DNA of 64,000 nucleotides from an uncultured Spirochaetaceae bacterium. GTDB taxonomy: Bacteria; Spirochaetota; Spirochaetia; Sphaerochaetales; Sphaerochaetaceae. Shown in pieces: positions 18,944 through 34,539 of the stretch. Numbering within the stretch: position 1 is the first letter of the stretch; each line of letters opens with the position of its first letter. The notes under the pieces were generated by a model. The model saw nothing but the letters and a program-made list of their open reading frames with translations, ran no database searches and was not told the origin of the DNA. The stretch spans positions 62,001 through 126,000 of the forward strand of contig CALXKU010000002.1 in the NCBI GenBank assembly GCA_944389025.1, in the 5' to 3' direction. A program made the translations under genes and the position numbers.

Positions 18944-20554
18944 TCAGACTCTGATAATCTCTTCCTTCCACCCTGTTATGTTTCTTTCCTCTGATGAGAA
19001 GTTTATCCCAAGAAGATGAATAACAGTCCCTTCCTTTGCATACTTCTCAAAGTATTTCTTCTCTTTTATCTGACTGAGTGCCTCATCCGCACTCTCATCG
19101 AGCTTCAGCTCTATTATGTAGATAACTCCCTTCCTTACCACGACGCTTACGTCCATCCGTCCTATGTTGGTCTTCTCCTCGGCTTCCACCTTATCAAAGC
19201 CAAGGAACATCAGCGCAGAGTAGAACGAGACTTGGAAGTTGTTCTCCTTATCCATGAACATGTCGTACGGTATGTTGACATATGCCTCACGGAACATCTT
19301 AATTATCCCCTCGGTGTCCCCCTCGGAGAAAGCTTTATAGAGATAGGGAAGCCTCTCCCCTCCGATCTTCAGCCCGTAGGTCCTCAAGACCTTTCCGTTC
19401 ATCGTGTCACTGACCTCCCTGTTGGGATAGCCGAGAATCATCTTGCCGTACTCGCTTCCTCTTATCGTGAGATAGCCGGCCTGAACGAGGTACGAGTACA
19501 CCGCCTCAGGATCCGGATTGGGTGAGAACGCCTCAGCCATGTTGAAGCTTGTTAAAGCCTGGTTGTATATGGAAAACGTGACATCCTCATGGAACAGCTC
19601 GGGGTTCCTGCTCACAATCTCATCTACAAGGCTCTGGGCTCCCGTCTCTATCCAGAAGTTCTCGAACGAGCATCCCCCTAAGAAGAACTTTCCGACTGAG
19701 ACAGGATTGTACATCGTTACATCATTCCTCAGGGAGAAGCGGTAGCCGTCGTAGAACTCCTTCATGCGGGTCCTGAAAGCTCTTCTCTCATTCTCATCAG
19801 CAACATTGTTATCTGAGAAGTATTTCTCCATGTACGGGGCAAAATAGTGGTCTATCTCATCATCAGTATAACCGCAGATAGCGGAAAACTTTGGATCTGA
19901 TGAGATATCTGTCAGATTGTTGAGCTTTGAGAAGATTGAAACATGCTGGAAGCGTGTAATGCCTGTTAGAAAGCAGAACCTTAGAGAGTTCTCCTCCACC
20001 TTGAGCGTCTCGTAAAACGCCTGGAGCATGTCCCTCATCTCTTCAAACTTTTCTTTTTCCTTAACACTCTGCATAAGGGGATAGTCATACTCGTCAATCA
20101 GGACAACTACCTTTTTCCCTGTCTTCCTGTATACGGCCCTTAATAGATTTGAAAAATAATAGAAAGGCTCCTCTATGGAGGTGTCAATCATGTCTTCAAC
20201 ATGGAAATACGAGGCCCATTTCATTACAAAGTCTAAAAGAAGCCTTGTATTCACTTTGTTCGAAGAAGCACGGAGATCATTCATGCTGAAGCGTATTACC
20301 GGATGCTCCTCGAAATCGTAACTGTCGTAGATGTATGTCCCTTTGAAGAGCTCCCTGTTCCCCTTGAATATGTTCTCAAGTGTGTCTATTAATAGACTCT
20401 TTCCGAATCTTCTAGGTCGGGAGAGAAAGAAATAAGTGCCCCTTCTTATAAGGGAGAGGATGTATTTCGTCTTATCGATATATAAGCCGTTAGATCTTAC
20501 TATCCATTCAAGCGAACTCTTATCTATTATTATTTCTTTCAGCTTCTCTTCCAT
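18944..20554 (-). CDS. AAA-ATPase-like / PD-(D/E)XK nuclease superfamily 9 protein, copy 1
   Basis: A 536-residue protein. The N-terminal AAA-ATPase-like domain (PF09820 type) starts with YIDKTKYI and has a P-loop RPRRFGKSLL. The C-terminal PD-(D/E)XK-like domain has GRMDVSVVV ... IIELKLDESADEALSQI, so Asp, ELK and Gln are all present. These proteins are heavily duplicated in gut bacteria and spirochaetes, and their role is not established. The downstream edge has no clear terminator. It is leaderless: TGC-TATATT then six bases to ATG. It is a close paralogue of the next gene, with blocks near identical even at DNA level. Confidence 0.8.
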   Translation of the reverse strand: MEEKLKEIIIDKSSLEWIVRSNGLYIDKTKYILSLIRRGTYFFLSRPRRFGKSLLIDTLENIFKGNRELFKGTYIYDSYDFEEHPVIRFSMNDLRASSNKVNTRLLLDFVMKWASYFHVEDMIDTSIEEPFYYFSNLLRAVYRKTGKKVVVLIDEYDYPLMQSVKEKEKFEEMRDMLQAFYETLKVEENSLRFCFLTGITRFQHVSIFSKLNNLTDISSDPKFSAICGYTDDEIDHYFAPYMEKYFSDNNVADENERRAFRTRMKEFYDGYRFSLRNDVTMYNPVSVGKFFLGGCSFENFWIETGAQSLVDEIVSRNPELFHEDVTFSIYNQALTSFNMAEAFSPNPDPEAVYSYLVQAGYLTIRGSEYGKMILGYPNREVSDTMNGKVLRTYGLKIGGERLPYLYKAFSEGDTEGIIKMFREAYVNIPYDMFMDKENNFQVSFYSALMFLGFDKVEAEEKTNIGRMDVSVVVRKGVIYIIELKLDESADEALSQIKEKKYFEKYAKEGTVIHLLGINFSSEERNITGWKEEIIRV

Positions 20555-20560
20555 ATCATC

Positions 20561-20569
20561 AATATAGCA
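20561..20569 (-). promoter_or_regulatory. Extended -10 of copy 1 (leaderless)
   Basis: On the minus strand TGC-TATATT is followed by six bases (GATGAT) and the ATG at 20554. The same core stands before copy 2. Confidence 0.5.
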
Positions 20570-20585
20570 TATTTTCTGGAGGTTA

Positions 20586-22196
20586 TCAGAGAGTAAGCAC
20601 CTCTTCCTTCCAATCTGTTATATTCCTCTCAGCAGATGAGAAGTTTATACCAAGAAGATGAATGACAGCACCATCTTTTGCATACTTCTCGTAGTATTTC
20701 TTCTCTTTTATCTGGCTCAGGGCCTCATCTGCACTCTTATCCAGTTTGAGTTCGATTATGTAATACACCCCGCTCTTAACATTCACCGTGATATCTATCC
20801 TTCCGACATTCGTGACATCCTCGGCAACCGCCTGTGCGCACATGCCCAGTGCTGAGAAGACGGCTATCTGGAACCCCTTCTCCCTGTCCAGCGTCAGCTG
20901 GTAAGGATAGCTCGTGAACGAGTTGTACAGCACCTTGATGATCCCTGCGGTATCCTCATTCAGAAGTGCCTTCCTCAACGCGGCTACCCGCTCCGATTCG
21001 AACTCCACCCCGTATGTCGTGAGCACCGCGGCATCCATCGCATCCCTCACCTCCTCGTTCGGATACGAGAGTATGTAATCGCCGGCTTCCGACCCCACTA
21101 TCGTGAGATATCCGGCCTGCATAAGATACGAGAGCACGTATCCCCTATCCGGCATCTCTGAAAACACCTTCCTCATCTCGAACCTGTTCGCCTTGGATAT
21201 CGGTACGGAGAACTCATCATCCTTCCTGAAAAGAGAGGCGTTCCTCTCCACTATCTCGTTCACAAGGCTCTGCATACCCGTCTCTATCCAGTAGTTCTTA
21301 AAGCGGCATCCTCCTATGAAGAACCTTCCAATGGATACAGGGTTGTACATCGTAACCGGATTATCGAAAGAGAAGCGGTAGCCGTCATAGAACTCCTTAA
21401 TGCGGGTCCTGAAAGCTCTTCTCGCTTCATCATCAGCAACATTGTTATCTGAGAAATACTTCTCCATGTACGGGGCAAAGTAATGGTCTATCTCTGAATC
21501 GGTGTATCCGCAGATTGCTGCGTACTCAGGATCGGTTGAGATGTCTGTCAGGTTATTGAGCTTCGAGAATATTGATACGTGCTGGAAGCGCGTAACTCCT
21601 GTAAGGAAGCAGAAGCATATGTTCTCTTCTTCCGCCTTGAATATGTTATAGAATGTCGCAAGCTCATCCCGTATCTCATCCAAGGCATCTCCATGGATGT
21701 TCTCCATAAGCGGGTAGTCGTACTCGTCAACGAGGACAACGACCTTCTTGCCATATCTTCCGCAAGCAGCTCTTATAAGGGATGAAAGATAGTCGGATGA
21801 TGTCGGAACCGAAAGATCCATCTCATCATAGACATTAAGAGCTTTCCCGATATTCTCTATCTGCTTCATCATCTGCAAGGAGACGGTCTTCTCATCATGC
21901 TTGTTCACGTTTATCATGTTGAGCCTTATTATCGGATGCTCCTCGAAATCGTAATTGTCGTAGATGTATGTCCCCTTGAAGAGTTCCCTGTTCCCCTTGA
22001 ATATGTTCTCAAGGGTGTCTATCAATAGACTCTTTCCGAATCTTCTAGGGCGGGAGAGAAACCAGTACTTGGACGGACTTCCTTTCCTCAGCATCTTATA
22101 AAGATACTCCGTTTTATCGATATAAAGATATCCGTCCTCTATAAGCTCTCTGAATGACTTCGAATCCGTTGCTATGTATTTCAGTTTCTCTTCCAT
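20586..22196 (-). CDS. AAA-ATPase-like / PD-(D/E)XK nuclease superfamily 9 protein, copy 2
   Basis: A 536-residue tandem paralogue of the neighbouring gene, same length and order. P-loop RPRRFGKSLL, then IIELKLDKSADEALSQI with GRIDITVNV as the nuclease-like core. Segments such as RFQHVSIFSKLNNLTDIS, HYFAPYMEKYFSDNNVAD and FYDGYRFS are nearly identical between copies, while the regions between (about residues 60-160 and 290-460) differ strongly. The mosaic suggests recombination between copies or selection on variable parts. It is leaderless with TGC-TATATT. The Rpn gene upstream is in the same orientation. Confidence 0.8.
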   Translation of the reverse strand: MEEKLKYIATDSKSFRELIEDGYLYIDKTEYLYKMLRKGSPSKYWFLSRPRRFGKSLLIDTLENIFKGNRELFKGTYIYDNYDFEEHPIIRLNMINVNKHDEKTVSLQMMKQIENIGKALNVYDEMDLSVPTSSDYLSSLIRAACGRYGKKVVVLVDEYDYPLMENIHGDALDEIRDELATFYNIFKAEEENICFCFLTGVTRFQHVSIFSKLNNLTDISTDPEYAAICGYTDSEIDHYFAPYMEKYFSDNNVADDEARRAFRTRIKEFYDGYRFSFDNPVTMYNPVSIGRFFIGGCRFKNYWIETGMQSLVNEIVERNASLFRKDDEFSVPISKANRFEMRKVFSEMPDRGYVLSYLMQAGYLTIVGSEAGDYILSYPNEEVRDAMDAAVLTTYGVEFESERVAALRKALLNEDTAGIIKVLYNSFTSYPYQLTLDREKGFQIAVFSALGMCAQAVAEDVTNVGRIDITVNVKSGVYYIIELKLDKSADEALSQIKEKKYYEKYAKDGAVIHLLGINFSSAERNITDWKEEVLTL

Positions 22197-22239: not shown

Positions 22240-23133
22240 TCAGATTTTTAGACCAGCGTTTTCAGCAATCTTATATACTTCAGAAAGAGAGAGTCCAAAA
22301 CTTCTAGCAATATCATCTGGTGTTGCTATTCCGTTTTTCAATACAATACCGATTGCATCATCGCGGCCCTGCTCCAGACCTTTTTCCATTCCCTTTTTCA
22401 TGATTCTCTCACTGTAGTTATCAAATGTCATATGTCCAGCCTCCGTGTTCTTGACCTCTCCAACTGCCTCCTTTAGAGGATCGTCATGCATCTCTTCATA
22501 TTCCCTGCACCTGATATTATACATCATTCTTCCCATGTCATCCTCCCCTTCGTAATTGATGTTCACCTCGTGCCTCTCATATGACCAGTCAGTGACCATC
22601 CCGTCCTGGTCTTTGAGGCGTGAGGTGTAGACGGCCTTCCCTCTCCCGTACCTGTCTCCGGCTATCAGCCAGATCGATGTGAATGATGGAAGGGATGAGT
22701 ACTTCTCTCCCTTTGCAAGGAATGCTATGTCGAAAGAGCTTTCGTACATCCTCACCCTCTTTGATAGATCTTCATCCATGCTGTTCTGCATCTCGAAGTT
22801 GATGAACCCTCCATCACTCTCCTCTGCCAGCGCGTCCATTATCACGGAGTGCCCGAGGTTCCTTATCTCGTGCTGGGTAAGGACGCGAACTATCTCCACC
22901 TTCCTTCCCGTTATCGTGCTTGCGAGGTAGCTTGCAGCCTTCTGGCTCTTCTCCATTACAATCTTGAAAAGGGCGTCGCTGCATAGGCTCATGTGCTTAA
23001 GCTCCTCGAGAGCGGTCGCGGATACCTCCTTCGTAAAATACTCATCCCCGCTATCTCTAAGCATCGTCTCCGCCCTTGGATATGACGGCATGAAAGAGAA
23101 CCGGATAACGGAATATCTTTCCTCTCCATTCAT
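22240..23133 (-). CDS. Rpn-family PD-(D/E)XK recombination-promoting nuclease/putative transposase
   Basis: A 297-residue protein of the PF12784 type. The N-terminal DALFKIVM with the downstream GFINFEMQNSMDEDLSKRV matches the PD-(D/E)XK core (E in EMQ) of Rpn proteins, and the middle SFTSIWLIAGD is characteristic. The C-terminus has a helical GMEKGLEQGRDDAI stretch and an HTH-like tail (ATPDDIARSFGLSLSEVYKIAENAG). Rpn proteins promote recombination and some act in defence. Start ATG 23133 follows AGGAGG. It is not a standard transposase, and no terminal repeats are seen. Confidence 0.8.
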   Translation of the reverse strand: MNGEERYSVIRFSFMPSYPRAETMLRDSGDEYFTKEVSATALEELKHMSLCSDALFKIVMEKSQKAASYLASTITGRKVEIVRVLTQHEIRNLGHSVIMDALAEESDGGFINFEMQNSMDEDLSKRVRMYESSFDIAFLAKGEKYSSLPSFTSIWLIAGDRYGRGKAVYTSRLKDQDGMVTDWSYERHEVNINYEGEDDMGRMMYNIRCREYEEMHDDPLKEAVGEVKNTEAGHMTFDNYSERIMKKGMEKGLEQGRDDAIGIVLKNGIATPDDIARSFGLSLSEVYKIAENAGLKI

Positions 23134-23216
23134 ATTTTGTTTCCTCCTCTCATATGAATACAAGAAAGGGGCGTTTTGTTAAATTGAGATGTAAATGAAA
23201 GAAAAAATGTCTGCTA

Positions 23217-23867
23217 TCAAACCGTAGTGACGTTTACCACGATTTCACCCTCGTACTGTCCTTCCGTGAAACCTGTCACAGCATCGCCTTTATCATCCTT
23301 GCGAGTAGGAGCATTGAGAGTCAGCTCAATATCAAAGTTCTTCGATATTCCGGAAGATGCTTTCACTGTTTCGCTTTTAATAAGTTGAAGAGTACGTTTT
23401 TCTTCAGAGACCTTAGATGAAATCTTACTGTCACTACCATCACTGGCATCACTGAAACTCAACAATATATTACCAGACGAATCTCCGTCCCTTTCAGAAA
23501 CGGAAACAGAATAATTCAAACCTATTTCCTCTTTCTCCTTATGATGAAGCATGAAATCTTCTGTCTCCCCATTTCCATAATTCTCAGTCGAACTTGCGAA
23601 TATAAGATCGACATTGAAAGTCCCCACATCATACATATGACAAGTAAAACCGAGTTCCGCGGTAGCCTTAGGTGGGGTGCCAGAAACAAGGGAGAATGTC
23701 ACCTCTTCAGAAAGACGGTTATCACTTCCGTATGAAGTGAAATAGTAGTCGGTGACACCCGGGCGAGTCAGAACAAGATCAAAACTTCCAAATGATATCT
23801 CTGTCGCTGTAATAATAGTCGAATTCAGCAGAGCGACAATGAAAGTAAAATAGAGAAGCTTTTTCAT
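23217..23867 (-). CDS. Exported beta-rich putative pilus subunit (last gene of the cluster)
   Basis: A 216-residue protein with a signal peptide (LLYFTFIVALLNSTIITA). The mature part is nearly all strand-like with many Ser/Thr/Glu; one Cys (LGFTCHMYD). The end GQYEGEIVVNVTTV has the G-x-Y plus alternating-hydrophobic pattern shared by the sister genes, like the closing strand of chaperone-usher pilins. It lacks the IGFS/YW motifs of four other members. The start overlaps the previous stop (TAATG). No hairpin terminator was found downstream, only a short T run. Confidence 0.6.
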   Translation of the reverse strand: MKKLLYFTFIVALLNSTIITATEISFGSFDLVLTRPGVTDYYFTSYGSDNRLSEEVTFSLVSGTPPKATAELGFTCHMYDVGTFNVDLIFASSTENYGNGETEDFMLHHKEKEEIGLNYSVSVSERDGDSSGNILLSFSDASDGSDSKISSKVSEEKRTLQLIKSETVKASSGISKNFDIELTLNAPTRKDDKGDAVTGFTEGQYEGEIVVNVTTV

Positions 23868-24385
23868 TATTTCGCCTCCAGAGCGATTGTAATGGTCCCT
23901 GTGTACTCCGATGTTGATTTGATAGCCTCCACCGGTACGAAGAAATTGAACTCGAAATTATACGTGCGAGGCATTTCATAACTTGTTTCCGACTCTTCAA
24001 AAAATTTCTCTACTGATTCAGAGCTCGCTCCAACTCCCTTAAAGGATGATGTATTACTTCCTGAGTTCGTATACCCGATCATATTTGTTTTATTTCTAAG
24101 CGGGGTTGCCTTTGAGATTTTAACCCTTACAGGATAGGTCGTGAACAGCTGAAGATACATGTAGAAAGGCCCTGTCGTATAACTAGAGAAATCGGAACTG
24201 ACAGAGAAAGTCACGGTTTCAAGTTCTGTATCAGGTTCCATTGAGCCACTTACACGACTTGTCGAGAATCCAATATTGTGGGTCCTTCCAGAGGTGAATC
24301 CAACAGGAACTCTCGCCTTGATATCAGCAAAGAGTGAGAATGATACAAAGATAATGATTATAATGAACAATAATATCTTCTTCAT
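23867..24385 (-). CDS. Exported putative pilus subunit (IGFS-motif protein)
   Basis: 172 residues. Signal peptide with a strongly hydrophobic core (KKILLFIIIIIFVSFSLFA). After it comes VPVGFTSGRTHNIGFS, with IGFS at 38-41 and STSRV directly after, the motif shared with two neighbours. The C-terminus SEYTGTITIALEAK gives the Y-x-G closing strand. No cysteine. The start ATG overlaps the upstream stop (TAATG), so it is coupled. Function is inferred from context and shape only; no catalytic motif is seen. Confidence 0.6.
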   Translation of the reverse strand: MKKILLFIIIIIFVSFSLFADIKARVPVGFTSGRTHNIGFSTSRVSGSMEPDTELETVTFSVSSDFSSYTTGPFYMYLQLFTTYPVRVKISKATPLRNKTNMIGYTNSGSNTSSFKGVGASSESVEKFFEESETSYEMPRTYNFEFNFFVPVEAIKSTSEYTGTITIALEAK

Positions 24386-24948
24386 TACTTCGCCCTCAGA
24401 GTCAGGATGAGATTCCTGTTATAGGCCTCAGCCTTGTAATTAAGAAAATCTTCCTGCTTAATTGATGCTTCAACAATGATTCTCTTACTGTTGATATCCT
24501 GGATTGTTGAGCTTTCTTTAGTATGTAAGACAGCATTAGCAGTATTGCTATCAGTACTGGCTAGGAGTGTACCCTTCTTATCATTCTTATTCTGATCATA
24601 CATCCAAGCATTCCATACAATCTTATCTTCCGTGTCCGTCTTAGAGAAAGACAAGCTCAGTTCCAGCTCCAAAGGTGAGACGATGCGCCAGTAAACCCAC
24701 GATGTACTGTTTACCGCTGTTATCTCTTGATTCTCATCGTAAGGCGAAGAGCTCAGATAAATCTGACTAAGGGAAGAAACGCTTCCTGTCGTCGCTGTTA
24801 CCTGTCCGCTTGAGAATCCGATATCATAGCGCTCTATCCCTTCTGGATTCAATGAAAGATTCAGCACTGTACCCTTGCCCAAGGATGCAGAGAAAACAAA
24901 AGAAAGAGAGAGTATGAAAATGATTGCAATTAAAACAAATCTCTTCAC
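24385..24948 (-). CDS. Exported putative pilus subunit (IGFS/YW family)
   Basis: 187 residues with signal peptide. IGFS at 43-46 and YWRI at 86-89 align with the 26207 and 25539 proteins. The first strand LNLSLNPEG also fits LTVTFDPSA and LDVTLDLTD of those two. The end LNYKAEAYNRNLILTLRAK is a looser version of the closing strand, with no G-x-Y core. The start is GTG overlapping the upstream TGA (GTGA), with GGAGGGG nearby as Shine-Dalgarno. No Cys. Probably a minor subunit. Confidence 0.6.
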   Translation of the reverse strand: MKRFVLIAIIFILSLSFVFSASLGKGTVLNLSLNPEGIERYDIGFSSGQVTATTGSVSSLSQIYLSSSPYDENQEITAVNSTSWVYWRIVSPLELELSLSFSKTDTEDKIVWNAWMYDQNKNDKKGTLLASTDSNTANAVLHTKESSTIQDINSKRIIVEASIKQEDFLNYKAEAYNRNLILTLRAK

Positions 24949-25511
24949 TCCATCCCCTCCGTCTTTATCGTAATCGCCGTGCTATATGTTCCTTCTTCAA
25001 GCATCAGTATGCTCTCGGTCTCCAGTTCGAAAAGAATATCCTTTGATGACGAGATCCCATGTTCAGAAGGTATATGCGTGTGGAACACTTTGGCATCATC
25101 GTATGAATTTTTATCAATAATTGTGGTCCATGAATCGCCGTTCTTCATTTTAAGCGTCCAATGAAGCTCATTCCCGTCATCTCTTTTCATAGAACCATAC
25201 ACCGTAGAAGATATCGATACATTCACCGTATCCTTGGATGTGATTCCTATGGTCGCATAAAACTGCTTAGAGGCCCTCATTCCATCACGCTTAAGAGAAA
25301 GCGCACTCAGCTCACCATCCACCTTATTTCCATTCTCATCAACACCATGGAAGGTGTATGAAGGAGAGAATGGAATCTCTACTGTTCCAAGATCCCACAC
25401 GACAGGAATGCTTCTCGAGACCGGAAGCACAGACAAAGTCGCAGGTTCATCCGCAGCATGAATCTGTACTCCGATAGTAAATAGCAGGATCAGGAACAGT
25501 AGTCTTCTCAT
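24945..25511 (-). CDS. Exported putative pilus subunit
   Basis: 188 residues from ATG 25511 (an in-frame TTG three codons earlier is possible; the local GGAT favours ATG). Signal peptide RRLLFLILLFTIGVQIHA. The body has a PVVWDLGTVEIPFSPSYTF segment and many strands, no Cys. The end EEGTYSTAITIKTEGME carries the G-x-Y closing strand. It does not share IGFS. It is separated by 27 bp from the preceding gene and overlaps the following start. The role is inferred from membership of the cluster. Confidence 0.55.
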   Translation of the reverse strand: MRRLLFLILLFTIGVQIHAADEPATLSVLPVSRSIPVVWDLGTVEIPFSPSYTFHGVDENGNKVDGELSALSLKRDGMRASKQFYATIGITSKDTVNVSISSTVYGSMKRDDGNELHWTLKMKNGDSWTTIIDKNSYDDAKVFHTHIPSEHGISSSKDILFELETESILMLEEGTYSTAITIKTEGME

Positions 25512-25538
25512 TTTATCCAAATGATATAGATATCATCC

Positions 25539-26195
25539 TCAATTTGAAGCAGATATGGACAGCGTTAATGTACCGCTGTATGAACCGTCTACTACACTGG
25601 TAGTAAGAAGGTCGACCGTTGATACCGTAAGAGGAATGCTTCCAGATTTAACAACAGCTGTAGAAGAGTCGTCTGACACAGCCTTAACATCTGCTATTTT
25701 CGTAACAGATTCTGCACCACTAGTACTTGTACCCGCGATACCACCTTCTCCATTTGCAGAGGTAGCAGTAGATGCCTTCCATTTGATTTTTGTTGAACCA
25801 GTATCCTCCGTAGTAGTCATATCGGCTCCCGTCTTCATGCTGATATCAACATCTGCTCCTTTTATAATCCAGTAGATAAAAGCTGTGTCTGCCGCATTCT
25901 GTACATCACCACCGCTTGTAGTCTCGGTAAGCTCAAGAGATGTTAAAACTTTAGCTGTTGGAACAGCATTATTTTCCCCTATAGCTCCAATTGCCTCTGA
26001 TGCAAATCCTATCTCAAAATACTTTCCGAGCTTACCATCAGTTAGATCGAGAGTTACATCAAGTGTTGCTGTTTTGTTACTAAAATCAAGCTGATCGCTT
26101 CCCGTCGCCTCTCCTGATACGCTACCCGTACCATCTGCGAACACCATTCCCATTGCGATAGCCATTATGGCTAATAACGTTAAGACTTTTTTCAT
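25539..26195 (-). CDS. Exported pilus subunit, candidate major fibre subunit (IGFA/YW family)
   Basis: 218 residues. Clean signal peptide (KKVLTLLAIMAIAMGMVFA|D). Mature protein is very rich in Thr, Ser, Gly, Ala and Asp, has no Cys, and has low-complexity stretches, as in major pilins. IGFA at 62-65 and YW at 108-109 align with its neighbours. The end DGSYSGTLTLSISASN is the clearest closing strand. Start ATG 26195 with GGAGGAT just before it is chosen over the ATG at 26207; this is one of the strongest ribosome sites of the operon, which fits a major component. That is an inference. Confidence 0.6.
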   Translation of the reverse strand: MKKVLTLLAIMAIAMGMVFADGTGSVSGEATGSDQLDFSNKTATLDVTLDLTDGKLGKYFEIGFASEAIGAIGENNAVPTAKVLTSLELTETTSGGDVQNAADTAFIYWIIKGADVDISMKTGADMTTTEDTGSTKIKWKASTATSANGEGGIAGTSTSGAESVTKIADVKAVSDDSSTAVVKSGSIPLTVSTVDLLTTSVVDGSYSGTLTLSISASN

Positions 26196-26206
26196 ACTAT
26201 CCTCCA

Positions 26207-26764
26207 TTATTCAGTTTTTATGTTCAGTCTTAATTCACCTGTATATTCTCCGGGGAGCAAATCCCCGTAATTCATTGTTTTAGTGCCGATTGAAAGCTCT
26301 GAGCTTCCAGCCGTTCCATAATAGTGCTCCGGATTCATGAAATCGAGTTCAAGATCATTATCCTCATCACTCGATATGCTCTTGTTCTCCTCTACGAGCC
26401 TGACTTCCCAGTCAATCTCTCCATTGGCGCCTTTGAGCGGTTCATCTATGGAGAGAGTCGCACTGAGCCTGCTAGAAGACATTATTCTCCAGTAGATATA
26501 GATGCTGTTCATATAGGTAGCAGTATCACCATCGATGATGAGATCCTCGATATCACTCTGCCTGAAACCGTACACCTCATCACCGATGCTGTTGATCTCG
26601 TTTCTTGAGAAGCCGATATCTACGATGTTGAGTGCTGACGGATCGAAAGTGACTGTCAGATCTGTTGATAACCCATTCTCTCCAAGGGTCGAATCAAAGA
26701 CCTCGGAGAAAAGGGAAGATGTGATCATGATGGATAATGCTACCGTCATGAACAGTTTTCTCAT
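26207..26764 (-). CDS. Exported putative pilus subunit (IGFS/YW family)
   Basis: 185 residues. Signal peptide to about residue 20. LTVTFDP (36-42), VDIGFSRNEI (IGFS 50-53), YIYWRIMSS (YW 91-92) and a following IDWEVRL make it the best match to the 24385 protein. Closing strand PGEYTGELRLNIKTE. No Cys. The start overlaps the upstream stop by 4 bp (ATGA). Probably a minor or linker subunit; the order in the fibre cannot be read. Confidence 0.6.
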   Translation of the reverse strand: MRKLFMTVALSIMITSSLFSEVFDSTLGENGLSTDLTVTFDPSALNIVDIGFSRNEINSIGDEVYGFRQSDIEDLIIDGDTATYMNSIYIYWRIMSSSRLSATLSIDEPLKGANGEIDWEVRLVEENKSISSDEDNDLELDFMNPEHYYGTAGSSELSIGTKTMNYGDLLPGEYTGELRLNIKTE

Positions 26765-27312
26765 ACGACACTCCTTAAGGCGAAGTCGATATTCATGTCA
26801 TACTCCCCAGGCATTATATTCGGCAGGCTCTCCCAGTAGATTGCCAGTTCTCCAGCCTTATCTCCATGACGGGCTCCAATTGCGGGAACCGTGAGAGTAA
26901 GCGTTCCATCATCATTCACACTTGAGACGATGCCGTCACTTCCAAGATAATCGCTGAAGGCAAGGGATACTGGAATGGACTCCGTTCCATCCTTTGACAG
27001 CAGCCATCCATCTGTAGAAGCTGCAATCTCAACCCTATACGGATTCTCCGTATTTCCATAAAAGAGAATGTCGATAGGTATCATAGTCTGACCCTCTTCA
27101 AGGATGATGTTCTCTAGCCCTATTCCAGGCATGAGATCTCCATTTGAGGTCTCGAATACGAGCTTATCGACCTTGAATGCATCCTTTGGAACAACTACCC
27201 CGTAATCCTCAGGAACAACCGCCCTGAAAGATACCGCCTGCGTGTTTTCTACCGCATATACAACGGAGAAAGAAAAGAAAACGCAAATCATCAAAATTAA
27301 AACCTTCTTCAT
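26761..27312 (-). CDS. Exported beta-rich putative pilus subunit
   Basis: 183 residues with signal peptide (KKVLILMICVFFSFSVVYA). SFRAVVPEDYGVVVP and ILEEGQTMIPIDILFYGN suggest an immunoglobulin-like sandwich. The end PGEYDMNIDFALRSVV has the G-x-Y closing strand. Start ATG 27312 follows GGAGAT, and the 15 bp gap after the upstream 485-residue gene makes this a second strong ribosome site within the operon. No Cys in the mature part. Confidence 0.55.
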   Translation of the reverse strand: MKKVLILMICVFFSFSVVYAVENTQAVSFRAVVPEDYGVVVPKDAFKVDKLVFETSNGDLMPGIGLENIILEEGQTMIPIDILFYGNTENPYRVEIAASTDGWLLSKDGTESIPVSLAFSDYLGSDGIVSSVNDDGTLTLTVPAIGARHGDKAGELAIYWESLPNIMPGEYDMNIDFALRSVV

Positions 27313-27327
27313 TTCTTTATCTCCTCT

Positions 27328-28785
27328 CTACCTATAGATTGTGTCTCCAGTAGTAATATTTTCTTCTCCATCTGTCACGATATGGACATAAACTTCCTCT
27401 TCATAAACACCTGACTTCATAGTCGGCGCAGACTGCTGATCCATGATGATGCTCACAGTAGCGTCATATTGAGCAAACCAGACCGTTCCTCCGGTTCCTC
27501 CAAACCCTTTAAATGGGATATAGATTGCATTCTCAGGTAAGATATTGTTTGTAACGGCCTCTGTCCCGTCAAAATCATAGACAACCTTATCACTGTCATT
27601 TGAGGTCTGGTTTGTCGTAACTCTTAAATCAAAACCTATATATTCCTCCATCATAGGACTTGATGAAGCACCTCTATGTACAAGGCGGAATCCGTTTGGA
27701 TCAGAATCAAATGGATTACGAGAGGCTGAAAGGAACATGTGATATTTAGGTTGTCTTCTTTTTTCAGGATATCTATAAACCCAATATCCACCTCCCGAAT
27801 GACTCAAATCAATGACCCAGTGATCCCTTACACCTTCTTCATCGATTATGTATTTGTTCCCCGCAATAGAAAGAAAATTTATATTTGCGATATCAACCTG
27901 TCTTCCCTGCATTGAATTGATTGATAGGTTCGATGCTGATGCCATAGGCCTTACAGAGAGGCTTGATGTCGTATCCATACTGCTGATATTCGCAGAGTAA
28001 TAGCCGCTCAGAGGTATTGTTACCTCTGCACTCTGCCCATTCCATTCAACAGTGATTGTTATAACTGCACTGTAATCATCTGCTTCTATAAGATTGTAAG
28101 AACGCCCGTTGTAGATCATGTTTCCACTGGAAGAGACATAGCTACCATTAGGAGCATTTGGATTCTCGTCGTAGGGAAGGCAAAGAACAAGGTCAAACCA
28201 CATGTACTGGTATTGACAATATTCATATTTGCTTTCCTCTACTTTTTCAGTTCTTGGCTTTGTATAAGAATATATAATATCTTTTATTACATTCTCTCCC
28301 TCTTGAAGAAGATATAATCTCTGCGTTCCGTTCGTATTTATTCCAGACTGATTGGCAGATGATGAGTAGCTCTCCTTTAAAATCAGCAACAAAGCAAATG
28401 GCCTTCTTGCTCCAGGATTAGAAATAGATTCAAAGAAGAAGCCATTAGGACAATTCACTGTAATAGTCATAGGTACATTACATTCTGTATTATTCCAATT
28501 CCCCTTATCCTCAGAAAACCATCCACCTTCTTCCGTAACGGTGAATTCCGACTTCATATTCCACACACCACCCAGAGCAACCGTATGTTTGCCAGAATAA
28601 TCACCATTCTCCCAAGTAATATTGGAATCCTGTCCTTGTGAAATTTCCTCTATGCTGAAATTGTATTCCGTCGACGCCATGTTTATTCCGAAGCCACCAT
28701 TCTGCGGGTTTACTCCAGGGGCTCCGGCAAAGATGGAGGAGGCTATCATGATGAGTGATATGAATATCAGTAATATTTTCTTCAT
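27328..28785 (-). CDS. Large exported protein, candidate tip adhesin of the fibre
   Basis: 485 residues, more than twice its sisters. Signal peptide KKILLIFISLIMIASSIFA. The N-terminal part has two Cys pairs (ECNVPMTITVNC and YCQYQYMWFDLVLC) that could be disulfides, the middle is rich in Ser/Asn/Tyr, and the C-terminal part has strands ending SGVYEEEVYVHIVTDGE, then a short tail. Two-domain adhesins at the tip of chaperone-usher pili have a pilin domain at the C-terminus and a binding domain at the N-terminus, which would fit. No carbohydrate-binding motif is recognised. It overlaps the preceding stop by ATGA. Confidence 0.5.
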   Translation of the reverse strand: MKKILLIFISLIMIASSIFAGAPGVNPQNGGFGINMASTEYNFSIEEISQGQDSNITWENGDYSGKHTVALGGVWNMKSEFTVTEEGGWFSEDKGNWNNTECNVPMTITVNCPNGFFFESISNPGARRPFALLLILKESYSSSANQSGINTNGTQRLYLLQEGENVIKDIIYSYTKPRTEKVEESKYEYCQYQYMWFDLVLCLPYDENPNAPNGSYVSSSGNMIYNGRSYNLIEADDYSAVITITVEWNGQSAEVTIPLSGYYSANISSMDTTSSLSVRPMASASNLSINSMQGRQVDIANINFLSIAGNKYIIDEEGVRDHWVIDLSHSGGGYWVYRYPEKRRQPKYHMFLSASRNPFDSDPNGFRLVHRGASSSPMMEEYIGFDLRVTTNQTSNDSDKVVYDFDGTEAVTNNILPENAIYIPFKGFGGTGGTVWFAQYDATVSIIMDQQSAPTMKSGVYEEEVYVHIVTDGEENITTGDTIYR

Positions 28786-29459
28786 ACAGCTCCTCCCTGG
28801 GTCTCTATAGGTGTTATGGTGACTTTTACCTCAGACCCGTAGTTTCCAGGCGGGAGAGTATTGTCATCCGCACTTCTTATGAAATTCGTTGTTGCCTCAT
28901 CGAACATGAATCTGATTGCCCCCTCGACATTTCCTACATACGAGTTATCATCCATACTGATGGAAGGTCTCCATTTCTGTCCGTCTTCTCCGCTACTTCT
29001 ATATGAGAAGGTCTCACTGCTTGCAGGGCTGAGTACTCCATTCTGATATAGCCCAAGCTCACAATCGAAATAGAGGATATAATCCAATGCCCTGTATTCA
29101 TCGCTGTATGTCTCTGTCGAGTTTTCTTGCATGTAGCGCATCGGCTCTCCTGAGAAAGAGATCTCGAACGGGGTGTTTGAAAGAATGCTGAATGTTGCAA
29201 TTCTTCTTCCCGCATCGGGTGCGGAATATGCAACGATATCATCCTCGATATCGAACGGCATGCCAGCAATATAAGCCATGGACTGAGCAGGAATAGCCTT
29301 GATATCTATCTCGCACACCTCATCGTATCCTGCCTGGATGGTAAATGAATCAGAACGCACTAATGTGACAGTACCTGTATCTTCTGCGTTTACGGATGCG
29401 ACAGACATGAGAAGAATGAGGAGTACAATCATGAGTCTGTTAATCTTATTAAACAACAC
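28782..29459 (-). CDS. Exported putative pilus subunit
   Basis: 225 residues from GTG 29459 (GGGGG at proper distance; the stretch overlaps the previous stop). Signal peptide FNKINRLMIVLLILLMSVASVNA. Two Cys in the body (YDEVCEIDI, FDCELGLY) may pair. The closing strand is PPGNYGSEVKVTITPIE, followed by a short polar tail. The segment FSILSNTPFEISFSGEPM is strand-like. Function inferred from cluster membership and the shared end pattern. Confidence 0.55.
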   Translation of the reverse strand: MLFNKINRLMIVLLILLMSVASVNAEDTGTVTLVRSDSFTIQAGYDEVCEIDIKAIPAQSMAYIAGMPFDIEDDIVAYSAPDAGRRIATFSILSNTPFEISFSGEPMRYMQENSTETYSDEYRALDYILYFDCELGLYQNGVLSPASSETFSYRSSGEDGQKWRPSISMDDNSYVGNVEGAIRFMFDEATTNFIRSADDNTLPPGNYGSEVKVTITPIETQGGAV

Positions 29460-30243
29460 TTAGCATAACCCCCACCGTCGCACGGTACTCCCCTCTTGGA
29501 ATGGAGGGATCATCATAATCAGTACTGCTGATTGTCATGGCAACAGCACCCCTATGAATCCAGGCAGCACGAGTTCTCTTTACTCCGTCTGAATCAACGA
29601 CTGGATCCTTATCCAAGACAGACCACTTGGAAATCAGTCCTGGATTATTTCCTTCAGTATTATTTCCTTCATCTACCTCTTCAGAAGGAATGACTTCTGT
29701 GACATTTCCTTCATTTGCCTCGATTTTCGCTTCCTCATAAGTGTTGGAAGAGGCTCCTGTGAACGTATAGGAGAAGTTTGAAAGATCATACCTAGTCCTA
29801 AGCGTGCCTGAGGTTTTCTCATTCCCTTCCTCTGTTTTCTGGTCTGTCAATTTAAAATCATGCATGGTCAGAGAGAGTGTGAAAGAGCCAAGAGTATTTC
29901 CTACAACCCTGTATGAGAATATGACCCTGTCTTTCAAGAACCCTCCATTGCTGATATCCCCAAGGAACTGATCTATGTGCTTCGTGACATCAATGTCAGA
30001 GCCTTTGATGGTTCCATCCTCATTTTTTGATGTCGAAAGCACCTCAAGAGACTCATTCATGGCATCGGTGATAACTACGTACGGATCCTCCTTGAGTCCG
30101 ACCTTATAGCCTCTGAGCTTCAACGTTGAGGAAGAAGAGGCTTTCTCCTCTTCTGACGGAGTGACAGAGGCTGAATCATCAGATGCGAAAAGCATCATAA
30201 GCGATATCAGAAGCAGAATGAGCATTGAAATCATCTTCCTCAT
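29449..30243 (-). CDS. Exported putative pilus subunit next to the usher
   Basis: 264 residues. Signal peptide RKMISMLILLLISLMMLFA, then an acidic Ser-rich linker (SASVTPSEEEKASSSS) before a domain with LKLRGYKVGLKED. The closing strand is PRGEYRATVGVMLSVV at the very end. No Cys. The start overlaps the usher stop (ATGA). Being first after the usher, it may be an early-assembled or terminal subunit, but order alone does not prove that. Confidence 0.55.
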   Translation of the reverse strand: MRKMISMLILLLISLMMLFASDDSASVTPSEEEKASSSSTLKLRGYKVGLKEDPYVVITDAMNESLEVLSTSKNEDGTIKGSDIDVTKHIDQFLGDISNGGFLKDRVIFSYRVVGNTLGSFTLSLTMHDFKLTDQKTEEGNEKTSGTLRTRYDLSNFSYTFTGASSNTYEEAKIEANEGNVTEVIPSEEVDEGNNTEGNNPGLISKWSVLDKDPVVDSDGVKRTRAAWIHRGAVAMTISSTDYDDPSIPRGEYRATVGVMLSVV

Positions 30244-33200
30244 GCCGCCACCTCCGCGCCGTAGAGCATCTCGAAGAATGCATCCTGACTCATGACCCCC
30301 GTCACGCTTAAATCCATCTCATAATCGTATACGTCGCTCATGGTCTCTGCCTCTCTCAGCTCACCCTGCTCAAGCATCTGAAGCAGTCCGAGATCATCAG
30401 GTCTGTCTTCCACACGGAAGTGCACGAGAATCCAGGAATTGCCATATGGCACATCGAACGCGTATTCCCCTACTTCCATAGAGGATGTGACAAAGCGTCC
30501 GTCTCCATCTGTGAAAAGATAGCTCTCAGTCATCTCAAGATTTCCATCCACTATGCGGTATATCGGAGATGAGCCGTTTATCCATGGCGTTCCGTCAGGA
30601 AGGGTTATAAGGGCAGAGGAAGCATAAGTGTTATCCGCATTGAGACGGAGCACGTAGCCTTTCCTGGTAGAGGAAGGTATGTTGACAGGGAATGACTCCG
30701 CGGTTGAGAACGTATCCTTTCCCTGACTGTACACTATGAAGCTGTCCGCAGCTGCTGAGAGCCCCTCATATATGGATACTCCAAAGCTCTGGGGCAGCTC
30801 GCTCATCCTTGAATACCCCGCACTTCCAACAGATACACTGTTACCTCTGAGTGCACCGCTTTGCGAGATGAGAACATAGTTTGAAGGAATGTATGAGCGG
30901 AATGCCAGGAGTCCGTCTGCAAATACGCTTGAAGTCCTGAGCGAGAGATCGGCACCGATTCTTGAAAGAGAATCATCAGCATCGAGTCCGAGAGAGAGAT
31001 CGACATAGTCCCCCTGATAGCTATAGCCCACATCGAACGAATAGTCGTTGAAGTTCATCAGATCCTCGGTATCCACGCTCGCACTCAGGGAGTGTCTTCC
31101 GAGGCCGTACCTTGTAGAGATGGACGTGTTGTAGCTTCCACCCGTTATGCTAGTACTTCCACCGTCATAGCGGATCGTCGCATAGACCCTTCCACTGATG
31201 ACAGGGTTTGTCCTTCCAGTTCCAGAAATGCTCATGGATGCAGAAAGCCAGATGCTTCTGGATGCCGAGAGGCTCAATGTGCCAGATGTGCTCCAGTAGC
31301 TAGAAGAGATCTTATCTGTATAGATTCCTCCCGATCCGGAAAGTCCCCAGCTGACGATGCCAAGACGTCCGGAGAGGGATGTGCTCAGTCCAATCCTGTG
31401 CCTGCCTGAGATTCTGAGCTCCTCAGGCGATGAGTAGTTCAGACCGAGAGAGACTGAACTGAGCTCTGTCATCCCCGTCCTGATCTGATGCCCGATATTC
31501 GCATAGAAACCAAGGGCGTTCCAGGATCCATCTTCCTTTGTGCGCTCAGTAACATTGAGACCGAATCTTGTCGTTCCAAGTATGTTCGCATTAGTTAGCT
31601 CGAAAGCAAACTTCATGTTCGGACGAAGATTCGTCAATTCATTTGGACTGTTCTGGAATGCGAGAGTGGCATCTATCGAGACTGTCGGTGAAAGCCCGGC
31701 TCTTACATATCCTGATAGAACGAAATCGAGGAGATTGTACTCAAGGCTGCGTCCGCCACCGAGCGGGACTCTGAACGAACTATCAAGTTTTGTAGCATTT
31801 GAAGAGACAGTGCTTCTCCCCGTTACAAGGGATGCTCCGTAGTAAACCTCACCAGGAGCAAGGAGGGACGCGGCATAAAGCACATCAAGATCTATGGTCT
31901 TCGCCTCTGAGCCATCAAGGGGGGTCATCGTAATTGTTATCCTGTTAGCCCCCGTGTAGAGTATGAAATCCCTCAGGCGATATGTCCCGATATCGAGCGT
32001 CCTTCTGAATATCTCACGCCCTTCATTGAAAATCTGCACCTCAGAAGGCTTATCAACTACGATCACCTCCTCTATCTGGCTTGGTCTTCTGTATGTGTTA
32101 GGCGCATATGCGTAGCTTCTGTCGAACCTTATTCCGACGCTTGAACCCCTTGGGGAGAAAAGATCGGAAGAGACATTTCCCCAGCTGAGGCGGAGGAGAG
32201 AATCAGGGAAATCATAATGGAAACGGTATGAGCCGAGGCTGAACGAGAAGGAATACGGTGTCAAACCAATGTAATAGTTGAAATCGAGATAGAGATCATA
32301 AAGGCGGGCCGAATTCGATGCGGAGAATGAGAGAGAAAGCCCGTTCTTTATATTCCTTCCTAGGAAATTCCTGACTCTCGCATTAAGATAATATGATGAA
32401 GTGAGTGTGAACACTGCCGGCTCAAGATCGATTCCACCTGTTATCGGACGCCTCGTATGGCGGAAGCTCGAGAGGCTGCCGATGCTCAGTATCTGTATCG
32501 GCATATCCTCAGGAGAGAGGGTCAGCCTGACCTCGTAGGAAATCGCATCATAGCTTGCCTCAGCACCGAGAGAGGTGATGTAATCAAGTGAGATATACTC
32601 TGAAGATGAAGAGAAGAGCCTCGATGCGAACTCATCCGTTACCGTTCCGCTGAGGTATGTCATGAGCTCAGAAGAAAGGAGGGAGACCTCCCCGTTTTCC
32701 GCATAAACGGTTATCGATCCCGTTTCCGAATCGTTGACGAAGAGTGTCATGTAATAGATTCCATCCTCAAGGGTAAGGTCATCCTCGCCTGCGATGTAGA
32801 AGGAGGCCCAGAAATCATCAAGAGAGGCATCGGCAAAGACATCCTCCTCCTCATCGACCAGATATGCATTGACTTCTTCTTTGAAAAGAGGAGCGGAGGG
32901 AATCTCAATCTCTACAATCGTACTCTCCTTCACAATAAGAGAAGGCACAGAAGGAGGCGTCACCTCATAGAGGCGTGGTATGTAGTACATCATCGGTTTC
33001 TCTGGAACTCTGATTGAATCAACCACAACTTCTTCTCCTTCGTCCTCAACTTTCTCCTCAGCCGTGCTCAGCAGCACCTGAGAATCATGTTTTTCCTCTC
33101 CTTCTTCCTCAGCACTGGCTGATGGAATCCTTTCACTTTCATCAATGCTCTCCATCACGGGAGATTCCTCTACTGCATCAGCGTGGGAAGACACATTTTC

Positions 33201-33782
33201 AACATCCTTAAAAGGCGTCTCTTCCTCTTCTTTTGCAGTTTCTTCACTCTTTGTGGCATCATCTGATGCCCCAGATGCAGTTTCTTCCACAGCATCTTCA
33301 AGCGGATCGGAAATGCTTTGCTCAATAGAGACTGGCAGCATCTTTTCCGCCTCTGCCGCCAAACCCCCCTTCACGGCGGCATCTAATAAAGGAATCTGAG
33401 GGAGGAGAATCTCCTCTTCTGGTTCAGGGGGAATTGAATAGGATCCACCCTCCCCCAGAGACTCGGTTATTTCATCTCTTTCTTCAGGCATGAAGAAGAG
33501 TATTCCGACAGCGACGAGTAACGCCATCATTACAAGGTAGATGAGGACAGTGCCACGTATTGAGCTGCTCTTTTTCTCCTTCTCGAATTTTTCTCTGAGA
33601 AAGAGGATGAGCTCCGCATCCGCATAGCTTAGGAAGGCCAGGAGAGCAAGCAGAGAGACTCCATCCCCCGCACTCTCATAAGCAGATGCCAGTACTTCAT
33701 GCGCCGTCCATGCCGTTCCCGATACGAGAAAAACAAGGAGAACGGAAAGCGCAAGAAGAAGAGCAACCTTCTTCCTGTCCAT
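30240..33782 (-). CDS. Usher-like outer-membrane assembly platform with inner-membrane anchor
   Basis: 1180 residues. Residues 1-100 hold two or three hydrophobic helices (about 5-23, 41-62 and 78-98) with the basic REKFEKEKKSSSIRG between the last two, so the rest faces the periplasm. Residues about 100-300 are an acidic, proline-containing linker. Residues about 300-440 resemble the usher N-domain (VNAYLVDEEEDVFADASL; SLLSSELMTYLSG). A barrel follows from about 450, with the plug-like DKPSEVQIFNEGREIFRRTL and GTYRLRDFILYTGANRI (578-613), both close to usher consensus. The C-end (ITLPDGTPWINGSS; SSMEVGEYAF) resembles the usher C-domain. It would secrete and polymerise the subunits. Start ATG follows GGGGGTAGAGT. 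Confidence 0.75.
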   Translation of the reverse strand: MDRKKVALLLALSVLLVFLVSGTAWTAHEVLASAYESAGDGVSLLALLAFLSYADAELILFLREKFEKEKKSSSIRGTVLIYLVMMALLVAVGILFFMPEERDEITESLGEGGSYSIPPEPEEEILLPQIPLLDAAVKGGLAAEAEKMLPVSIEQSISDPLEDAVEETASGASDDATKSEETAKEEEETPFKDVENVSSHADAVEESPVMESIDESERIPSASAEEEGEEKHDSQVLLSTAEEKVEDEGEEVVVDSIRVPEKPMMYYIPRLYEVTPPSVPSLIVKESTIVEIEIPSAPLFKEEVNAYLVDEEEDVFADASLDDFWASFYIAGEDDLTLEDGIYYMTLFVNDSETGSITVYAENGEVSLLSSELMTYLSGTVTDEFASRLFSSSSEYISLDYITSLGAEASYDAISYEVRLTLSPEDMPIQILSIGSLSSFRHTRRPITGGIDLEPAVFTLTSSYYLNARVRNFLGRNIKNGLSLSFSASNSARLYDLYLDFNYYIGLTPYSFSFSLGSYRFHYDFPDSLLRLSWGNVSSDLFSPRGSSVGIRFDRSYAYAPNTYRRPSQIEEVIVVDKPSEVQIFNEGREIFRRTLDIGTYRLRDFILYTGANRITITMTPLDGSEAKTIDLDVLYAASLLAPGEVYYGASLVTGRSTVSSNATKLDSSFRVPLGGGRSLEYNLLDFVLSGYVRAGLSPTVSIDATLAFQNSPNELTNLRPNMKFAFELTNANILGTTRFGLNVTERTKEDGSWNALGFYANIGHQIRTGMTELSSVSLGLNYSSPEELRISGRHRIGLSTSLSGRLGIVSWGLSGSGGIYTDKISSSYWSTSGTLSLSASRSIWLSASMSISGTGRTNPVISGRVYATIRYDGGSTSITGGSYNTSISTRYGLGRHSLSASVDTEDLMNFNDYSFDVGYSYQGDYVDLSLGLDADDSLSRIGADLSLRTSSVFADGLLAFRSYIPSNYVLISQSGALRGNSVSVGSAGYSRMSELPQSFGVSIYEGLSAAADSFIVYSQGKDTFSTAESFPVNIPSSTRKGYVLRLNADNTYASSALITLPDGTPWINGSSPIYRIVDGNLEMTESYLFTDGDGRFVTSSMEVGEYAFDVPYGNSWILVHFRVEDRPDDLGLLQMLEQGELREAETMSDVYDYEMDLSVTGVMSQDAFFEMLYGAEVAA

Positions 33783-33807
33783 ACTCTACCCCCGATTATT
33801 CCTTCTC

Positions 33808-34539
33808 TTATGCCGAATAGGAATAATCATACGCGGCCTGAGACTGGAACTCCGTGGCCCCGGAGAGAGACTCCGGAATATCAATTACAATTCTGAGGGT
33901 GCTTCCCGTTAAGAGATTCTGACCGCTGACAGCCCCGATTTCCCCTTCGCTGAGCGTGTAGGATGATCCATCATTTCCCGATACGGTGACAGAGAGGTCA
34001 TTGAGCATCTGATGCACACTTCCCGTGTTCTCAATCCTGATCTCAAGCTTTCCCTCTTCATTGATATCAGCAGTCGTGCTAACCCGTTCCACCACCATGG
34101 ATGGACGGACGTATGCACTTGTGGAATAGACGAAGAGGAAGGAAATCATCTGTCCTGATTCTTCCGTCTGGGCACCACGCGGCATTGCAATCTGTTCTGA
34201 TATGATTCTGAATGAGAGTTCGCGTGTGACAGTCTGAGGACCTCTGTATTGGACACGTACGAGCTGAGAAGCCTGAGGCGCGATTATCATGCGCTTCGGC
34301 TGTATCTGGAAATATGCGGATGCATCCTCCGTATACTCGTTTCCATCAAGGTCGATGTTCCTAGAATACGCATTGATCTCAATGGCTATCGGGCTGTCGG
34401 AATCGTTTGTTATCGTGTACACACGCGCCGAACCGGCACCGGTTGGATCGTAGGTGGCACTTAACGGTGACAGCTGATAGGCATATAAGGCTGCGCAGAA
34501 AAAGAGCAGCACGAAAAGTATTATTAATCCTTTTTTCAT
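33808..34539 (-). CDS. Periplasmic pilus-assembly chaperone
   Basis: 243 residues. Signal peptide MKKGLIILFVLLFFCAALYA. Domain 1 shows the PapD-like pattern: LSPLSATYDPTGAGSARVYTITNDSDSPIAIEI, then FQIQPKRMIIAPQASQLVRV, then the LSFRIISEQI strand, equivalent to the conserved YR region. Domain 2 begins near STTADINEEG. It has no Cys after the signal peptide. The sequence is nearest to the archaic (Csu/sigma-type) chaperones by eye. It donates a strand to subunits in the periplasm and hands them to the usher. Start ATG follows AGGGGG, 25 bp before the usher gene. It is the first gene of the operon. Confidence 0.85.
   Translation of the reverse strand: MKKGLIILFVLLFFCAALYAYQLSPLSATYDPTGAGSARVYTITNDSDSPIAIEINAYSRNIDLDGNEYTEDASAYFQIQPKRMIIAPQASQLVRVQYRGPQTVTRELSFRIISEQIAMPRGAQTEESGQMISFLFVYSTSAYVRPSMVVERVSTTADINEEGKLEIRIENTGSVHQMLNDLSVTVSGNDGSSYTLSEGEIGAVSGQNLLTGSTLRIVIDIPESLSGATEFQSQAAYDYSYSA

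Follow-up and report, generated by a model that had tools for sequence, protein, structure and literature searches.

What is built from ten exported proteins that are encoded one behind the other and close on a common C-terminal pattern? The question is raised by a stretch of 64,000 nucleotides (the window) from contig CALXKU010000002.1 of an uncultured Spirochaetaceae bacterium. On the minus strand of the window, from 34539 down to 23217, a chaperone gene, an usher gene and the genes of ten exported proteins, named S01 to S10, form a single run; all coordinates given below for these genes refer to that strand. The open reading frames (ORFs) of S01 to S10 occupy 30243 down to 23217, and the majority of them overlap or abut. 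The whole run, 23217-34539, is with high probability (roughly 0.88) one chaperone-usher (CU) pilus operon of a gut spirochete of the Candidatus Ornithospirochaeta type, within the Sphaerochaetaceae. Gene content and gene order, the identities of the chaperone and of the usher, the pilin fold of S05 and the N-terminal extension of the usher were computed directly.

The shared closing strand and the relations of the subunits

The sequence-only reading had described the tails of nine of the ten proteins by the pattern [G/E]-x-Y-x-x-hydrophobic-x-hydrophobic. When the hydrophobic positions are limited to V, I, L, M, F and W, none of the ten tails fits; if A, T, Y and C are allowed as well, the pattern matches S06 and S07 at the expected position and S03 at a different one. 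The literal motif was rejected because it is off by one, the spacing from the tyrosine to the first hydrophobic residue being three residues and not two. The corrected motif, Y-x3-h-x-h-x-h (h, hydrophobic), is present in all ten tails. This includes S08, the protein at 24385, which had been credited with a loose version only and whose tail, EAYNRNLILTL, fits the corrected form.

The frequency of the motif was determined in nine operons, those of the window and of the related loci L031-L038, which hold 8 to 15 subunits each. The choice of their 107 subunits rested on position, length and signal peptide and was independent of the motif. The corrected motif lies within the last 30 residues of 90 of these subunits. 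In other exported ORFs from the stretches fetched for these operons the figure is 8 of 67, or 11 of 78 when the signal-peptide filter is relaxed, and in shuffled tails it is 14.9%. It is least frequent in the S01 orthologs (5/9) and in the middle genes (42/54). The concern that such an end might be common in unrelated exported proteins is dispelled by these counts. Structurally, the closing strand is the last, C-terminal strand of the CU pilin core.

That the ten are unrelated exported proteins, whose tails agree by chance or through a common export step, is an explanation of very low probability. It would be in keeping with the low pairwise identity to S05 (12-30%) and with S03, which has no convincing profile link to the other subunits. 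The motif counts largely refute it, and the chaperone and the usher of the same operon, the pilin fold and the conserved gene order described below all speak against it.

The middle-type pilins of the window are S05 (26207..26764, 185 residues, tail GEYTGELRLNI), S06 (25539..26207, 222 residues, GSYSGTLTLSI), S07 (24945..25520, 191 residues, GTYSTAITIKT) and S08 (24385..24948, 187 residues). The middle subunits and S09 (23867..24385, 172 residues, SEYTGTITIAL) make one clear profile family (hhalign 98%, E 1e-14). An alignment of 63 middle and S09-type subunits, called A1, has a mean column identity of 15%. S01, S02, S04 (26761..27312, 183 residues, GEYDMNIDFAL) and S10 are weakly tied to the middle family by profile comparison (about 48-85%). 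Because only the middle subunits and S09 form one clear profile family, the earlier proposal of a new subunit family is not upheld; it was too strong, as fold and profile link place the subunits in the known CU pilin superfamily, as divergent members.

The IGF[SA] signature reported for four of the ten proteins is confirmed, as IGFS in S05, S08 and S09 and as IGFA in S06, and a YW follows later in three of them (S05, S06 and S08). Among the 63 middle-type subunits, 12 carry IGF[SA] and 44 carry GF[STA], with the phenylalanine conserved in at least 90%; IGF[SA] is also found in 2 of the 67 unrelated exported proteins. IGF[SA] is a local variant. The IGF and YW sites sit on core strands of the S05 model (31-37 and 72-79) and are therefore fold signatures of the middle subunits.

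S03 (27328..28785, 485 residues, tail GVYEEEVYVHI) is, by its size, the best candidate for a tip adhesin; shaft or adaptor subunits are most likely encoded by the variable middle genes. S03 was also considered as a homolog of the adhesin-like proteins found in other families. This candidate relation was rejected, as the S03 profile gave one weak match, to a protein of 151 residues, and the tip role therefore stays inferred.

Pilin fold, chaperone and usher

The AlphaFold2 (AF2) model of S05 (pLDDT 85.3, pTM 0.74) retrieves CU pilins in all of the Foldseek ranks 1-12, among them CfaB, FimG, CsuA/B, FimA and PapA (prob 0.84-1.00), which points to a pilin-type immunoglobulin fold. Residues 1-25 of the model are unstructured and free of strands. 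Strict N-terminal alternation is found in 77 of the 107 subunits vs 23 of the 67 controls. Separate sequence support for the pilin fold comes from scattered exported proteins of Sphaerochaeta-type genomes, which were found using A1 and form a profile of their own (A4, 17 sequences): A4 matches the CS17 major fimbrial subunit (E 7.5e-5) and also matches A1 (95.2%, E 2.8e-8). On the whole, the pilin reading of the ten exported proteins is supported.

Several results weigh on the other side. The best Foldseek match of S05, CfaB, has an E value of 1.3e-3, and none passes 1e-3. In the VIA comparison, the first two rows are hexosaminidases (Z 7.4-7.5), with pilins reaching Z 7.3, and because of this tie the fold match of S05 alone is moderate. 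The predicted fold was obtained for S05 only among the ten, from a model of a single subunit. A looser test of N-terminal donor-strand alternation does not separate the subunits (102/107) from the controls (57/67). In addition, Pfam gives no significant match for any of the ten subunits, and the usher of the window has no Pfam match, PF00577 included.

The chaperone (33808..34539, 243 residues, exported) matches Pfam PapD_N with 24.4 bits at a cut-off of 23. PapD_N is also matched by 21 of 22 relatives, and the chaperone profile finds a weak EcpB match alone among PDB sequences (E 0.027). A gene for a PapD-type periplasmic chaperone thus lies beside that of an usher, the arrangement that marks a CU system. 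The neighbouring protein of 1180 residues (30240..33782) is the usher. Its AF2 model, which covers residues 270-1180 and was made with 40 sequences (pLDDT 84.1, pTM 0.66), was compared with the PDB by Foldseek; the first 18 rows are all FimD or PapC, with E values from 3.5e-28 (FimD) to 2.3e-14, and the next row is a siderophore receptor (E 6.4e-6). VIA gives Z 19.0 over 632 residues at a root-mean-square deviation of 7.5. Read by eye, the strand list of the model begins with an N-terminal domain followed by six long strands; a small insertion, entirely of beta structure, sits at the plug position, and more barrel strands and C-terminal domains come after it. Model and fold comparison accordingly predict an N-terminal domain, a barrel with plug and C-terminal domains in residues 325-1180 (30243..32810), while the portion of the linker that the model includes (from residue 270) has pLDDT below 50.

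PF00577 is present in 10 of 40 usher relatives (best E 1.8e-8). Its absence from the usher of the window is read as divergence, because the fold comparison identifies an usher and PF00577 does not define the pathway. Searches of the organism's own genome with PF00577 and PF00345 gave no match, though the genes are present, and the usher profile produced chance matches only among PDB sequences, in the low-complexity linker. The claim that pilin-like subunits lie beside a chaperone and an usher finds support in PapD_N, in the FimD fold match and in the pilin fold of S05.

In known CU systems, as passages of PMC4654587 and PMC9452303 describe, a strand of the chaperone fills the groove that results from the subunit's lack of a last strand, and the N-terminal domain of the usher receives the complex; the N-terminal extension of an incoming subunit then displaces the chaperone strand, and the fibre exits via the barrel. 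By analogy, donor-strand exchange and polymerisation would operate here. The ten proteins would be Sec-exported pilin subunits of immunoglobulin type, each capped by the chaperone, and the N-terminal domain of the usher would take the complexes. The closing strand would flank a groove filled first by the donor strand of the chaperone and then by the N-terminal extension of the next subunit, and the subunits would be linked and extruded via the usher barrel. Alternatively, what the usher secretes may be no rod-like pilus but a thin surface layer resembling a capsule or coat, a form found in some CU systems. This is rather improbable; the many different subunits of each operon (8-15 in nine operons) and the scattered single pilin genes of Sphaerochaeta-type genomes would favour such a layer, and the results do not distinguish between a fibre and a fine mesh.

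The pilus operon may be compared with three kinds of known CU systems. It resembles the CFA/I-CS1-type (alternative CU) fimbriae in that CfaB is the top match of S05 and that, by sequence profile, the Sphaerochaeta relatives match the CS17 major pilin best; the profile of the window's own family (A1) finds nothing among PDB sequences. It is unlike them in its ten different subunits, its predicted anchored usher, its occurrence in Spirochaetota and the lack of a Pfam fimbrial match, which extends to the 63 aligned subunits. With type 1 and P pili (FimD/PapC, FimC/PapD) it shares the usher fold with all its domains and the PapD-type chaperone, whereas the usher has about 11-16% identity to theirs in fold alignments and 1180 residues, compared with about 800 in the full-length FimD/PapC chains among the matched entries. 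Archaic Csu pili, characterised by the SCPU domain, are alike in the S05 fold match and in the SCPU domains of relatives from other Spirochaetia families.

Membership in this archaic (SCPU/Csu) branch is nevertheless unlikely. In its favour, CsuA/B is among the matches of S05, and SCPU was found by Pfam in two adhesin-like proteins of 310-350 residues from other Spirochaetia families (E 6.9e-12 and 7.4e-6; ten proteins of these loci were tested). Against this, SCPU is absent by Pfam from the ten proteins and from the 63 aligned subunits, and the best sequence links are to CS17 and, weakly, to EcpB, both of which we take to be alternative-type systems. The operon subunits also have no regular cysteine pair: of 54 middle subunits, only 5 contain at least two cysteines, while the archaic pilin domain is marked by invariant cysteines, according to a passage of PMC4654587. 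The suggestion of the sequence-only reading that the tails resemble the ends of SCPU-type pilins thus holds in part. The C-terminal strand of a pilin is there and SCPU occurs in the two adhesin-like relatives, but the ten proteins themselves have no SCPU domain.

Distribution and gene order

Relatives of the 1180-residue usher are present in 91 of the 119 genomes of the order that were searched, and in 15 of 22 genera. The chaperone is found in 38 of 392 genomes of the phylum, of which 29 belong to the same family and 9 to other families within the class. The chaperone profile, run against named genomes, gave 97 relatives, of which the best 80 were retained; every one of these 80 carries a spirochete title, with Candidatus Ornithospirochaeta, Candidatus Aphodenecus, Sphaerochaeta and Pleomorphochaeta among the genera.

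The order chaperone-usher-S01-S02 is kept in 31 of 38 window-type loci, and S03 comes next in 30 of these 31; the 38 loci overlap in genomes with the earlier locus set that includes the nine operons, and are not independent of it. S01 (29449..30243, 264 residues, with signal peptide, tail GEYRATVGVML) stands directly behind the usher, S02 (28782..29459, 225 residues, GNYGSEVKVTI) is second, and S10 (23217..23867, 216 residues, GQYEGEIVVNV) is the final gene in all nine operons. Among the other seven loci, six have only the chaperone among their labelled genes and one (L099) is ordered differently. In this variant operon (L099; L171:8657-19961) the usher is first, many subunits follow and the chaperone is last; the same genome has a second chaperone match. 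The nine genomes of other families contain eleven usher loci, which are ordinary CU gene sets with an usher of 786-898 residues, small closing-strand proteins, usually a chaperone and usually a protein of 310-350 residues with the same closing strand.

The Sphaerochaetaceae ushers are of two types. Type A numbers 33 in the tree, the usher of the window among them, and wherever the fetched stretch is long enough, pilin genes follow. Type B comprises 44 ushers that are not directly followed by pilin genes within the listed stretches; 34 of the 44 adjoin V-type ATPase genes in the fetched stretch, the Pfam identities having been checked for one locus (L041). At that locus (L041:4678-13257), as in most Sphaerochaetaceae, a chaperone-usher pair without pilins lies directly upstream of a V-type ATPase operon. 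Both types occur in one genome (G007), and the split between them is weakly supported in the tree (0.04-0.75 for A, 0.56 for B). Each Sphaerochaeta-type (g9) genome has, at other places on its chromosome, 3-7 pilin matches of A4 type, and such matches are absent from four genomes of the window's genus. In two Sphaerochaeta-type genomes (L151:4972-12849, L153:6595-14700) the scattered pilin genes lie beside genes for a TonB-dependent receptor and ExbB/ExbD-like proteins, with Pfam identity tested only for the receptor and the ExbB-like protein of L151.

Immediately downstream of the pilus operon, positions 22240-23163 encode a nuclease of the PDDEXK_2 transposase family, and a gene of similar size is found at that place in one relative (L032). 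Positions 18944-22196 hold two tandem paralogs whose ends are alike, the second being an AAA-ATPase-like/PDDEXK_9 protein. A scan for promoters and terminators gave 26 promoter-like sites vs 22.6 in shuffles and 12 terminator-like sites vs 8.7, and was therefore not used.

The N-terminal extension of the usher

The most unusual part of the system precedes the usher fold. In all 77 intact Sphaerochaetaceae ushers (a truncated copy, L146, was dropped) 127-521 residues stand before the N-terminal domain, with at least one hydrophobic segment each, and the clade of all 77 has a tree support of 1.0. The 11 ushers examined from other Spirochaetia families lack such an extension and have 15-107 residues before this domain, a length that the first-start rule overcalls in some. 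In the usher of the window, residues 1-100 (33483..33782) contain hydrophobic segments at 6-24, 44-62 and 79-97 and form a predicted membrane anchor; residues 101-324 (32811..33482) are an acidic linker, its boundary taken from the profile and its character from the composition of relatives. A GGGGG stretch precedes the start codon at 33782. Hydrophobic segments number 2-7 in type A ushers (most often three, in 18/33, or five, in 6/33), and 43 of the 44 type B ushers have one. The linker contains 22-26% Asp+Glu and 9-16% Pro, the usher core 12% and 3.4%, respectively.

From these features a membrane anchor appears likely, and its retention in the mature usher may be inferred at somewhat better than even odds. 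A trans-envelope architecture of the Sphaerochaetaceae ushers, with one to several inner-membrane helices, an acidic Pro-rich periplasmic linker and an outer-membrane pilus pore, is slightly favoured. The N-terminal anchor and the linker would probably hold the usher to the inner membrane, with its barrel in the outer membrane. Such an usher could serve to concentrate complexes close to the inner membrane or to fasten the base of the pilus there.

Better-known ushers begin with a cleaved signal peptide. By the same token, the system could be a CU pilus in which the N-terminus of the usher is only a long, cleaved signal sequence, which would leave an ordinary outer-membrane usher bearing a disordered tail. 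This is a serious contender, although the less probable of the two. Of the 44 type B ushers, 20 have an AxA-like cleavage site close to the hydrophobic run, but such sites also occur in 5 of 11 ordinary ushers and do not discriminate. This result, and the fact that the evidence for the anchor is hydropathy, count against a retained anchor. A cleaved signal is harder to reconcile with the three hydrophobic segments of the window's usher, with the 2-7 (mostly three or five) of type A, and with an extension common to all 77 ushers of the clade. A hydrophobic run of at least 19 residues is present in 34 of 44 type B ushers. None of the 11 ushers from other families has such a run, and among subunits and chaperones it is seen in 17/107 and 2/22, respectively.

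The N-terminus of type B ushers, with a short basic start, one hydrophobic segment and a Pro-rich acidic linker, resembles TonB in its layout only, by analogy and not by homology; it differs from TonB in that it precedes an outer-membrane barrel and not the TonB C-terminal domain. In many type B ushers (L040, L041, L042, L043, L047-L050) a cysteine, seen by eye, ends the hydrophobic segment, with no standard lipobox.

In the portions of PMC4654587 (2015) drawn on here, CU systems are listed only in Proteobacteria, Cyanobacteria and Deinococcus-Thermus. In full-text searches of the openly licensed PubMed Central (PMC) literature, including passages of PMC4793230, no spirochete CU system came up, nor any description of an inner-membrane-anchored usher. 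The pathway is a known one; what is new is the phylum, the number and diversity of the subunits and, above all, the N-terminus of the usher. The usher and the pilins of the window escape the standard family models used here. For the biology of the family, which includes gut residents and Sphaerochaeta, a widespread CU system represents a candidate surface organelle. An anchored usher, if true, would be a CU assembly platform that brings subunits together at the inner membrane or attaches the pilus to it. It would then be unlike the usher descriptions found, and would depart from the envelope position that pilus assembly platforms are supposed to occupy.

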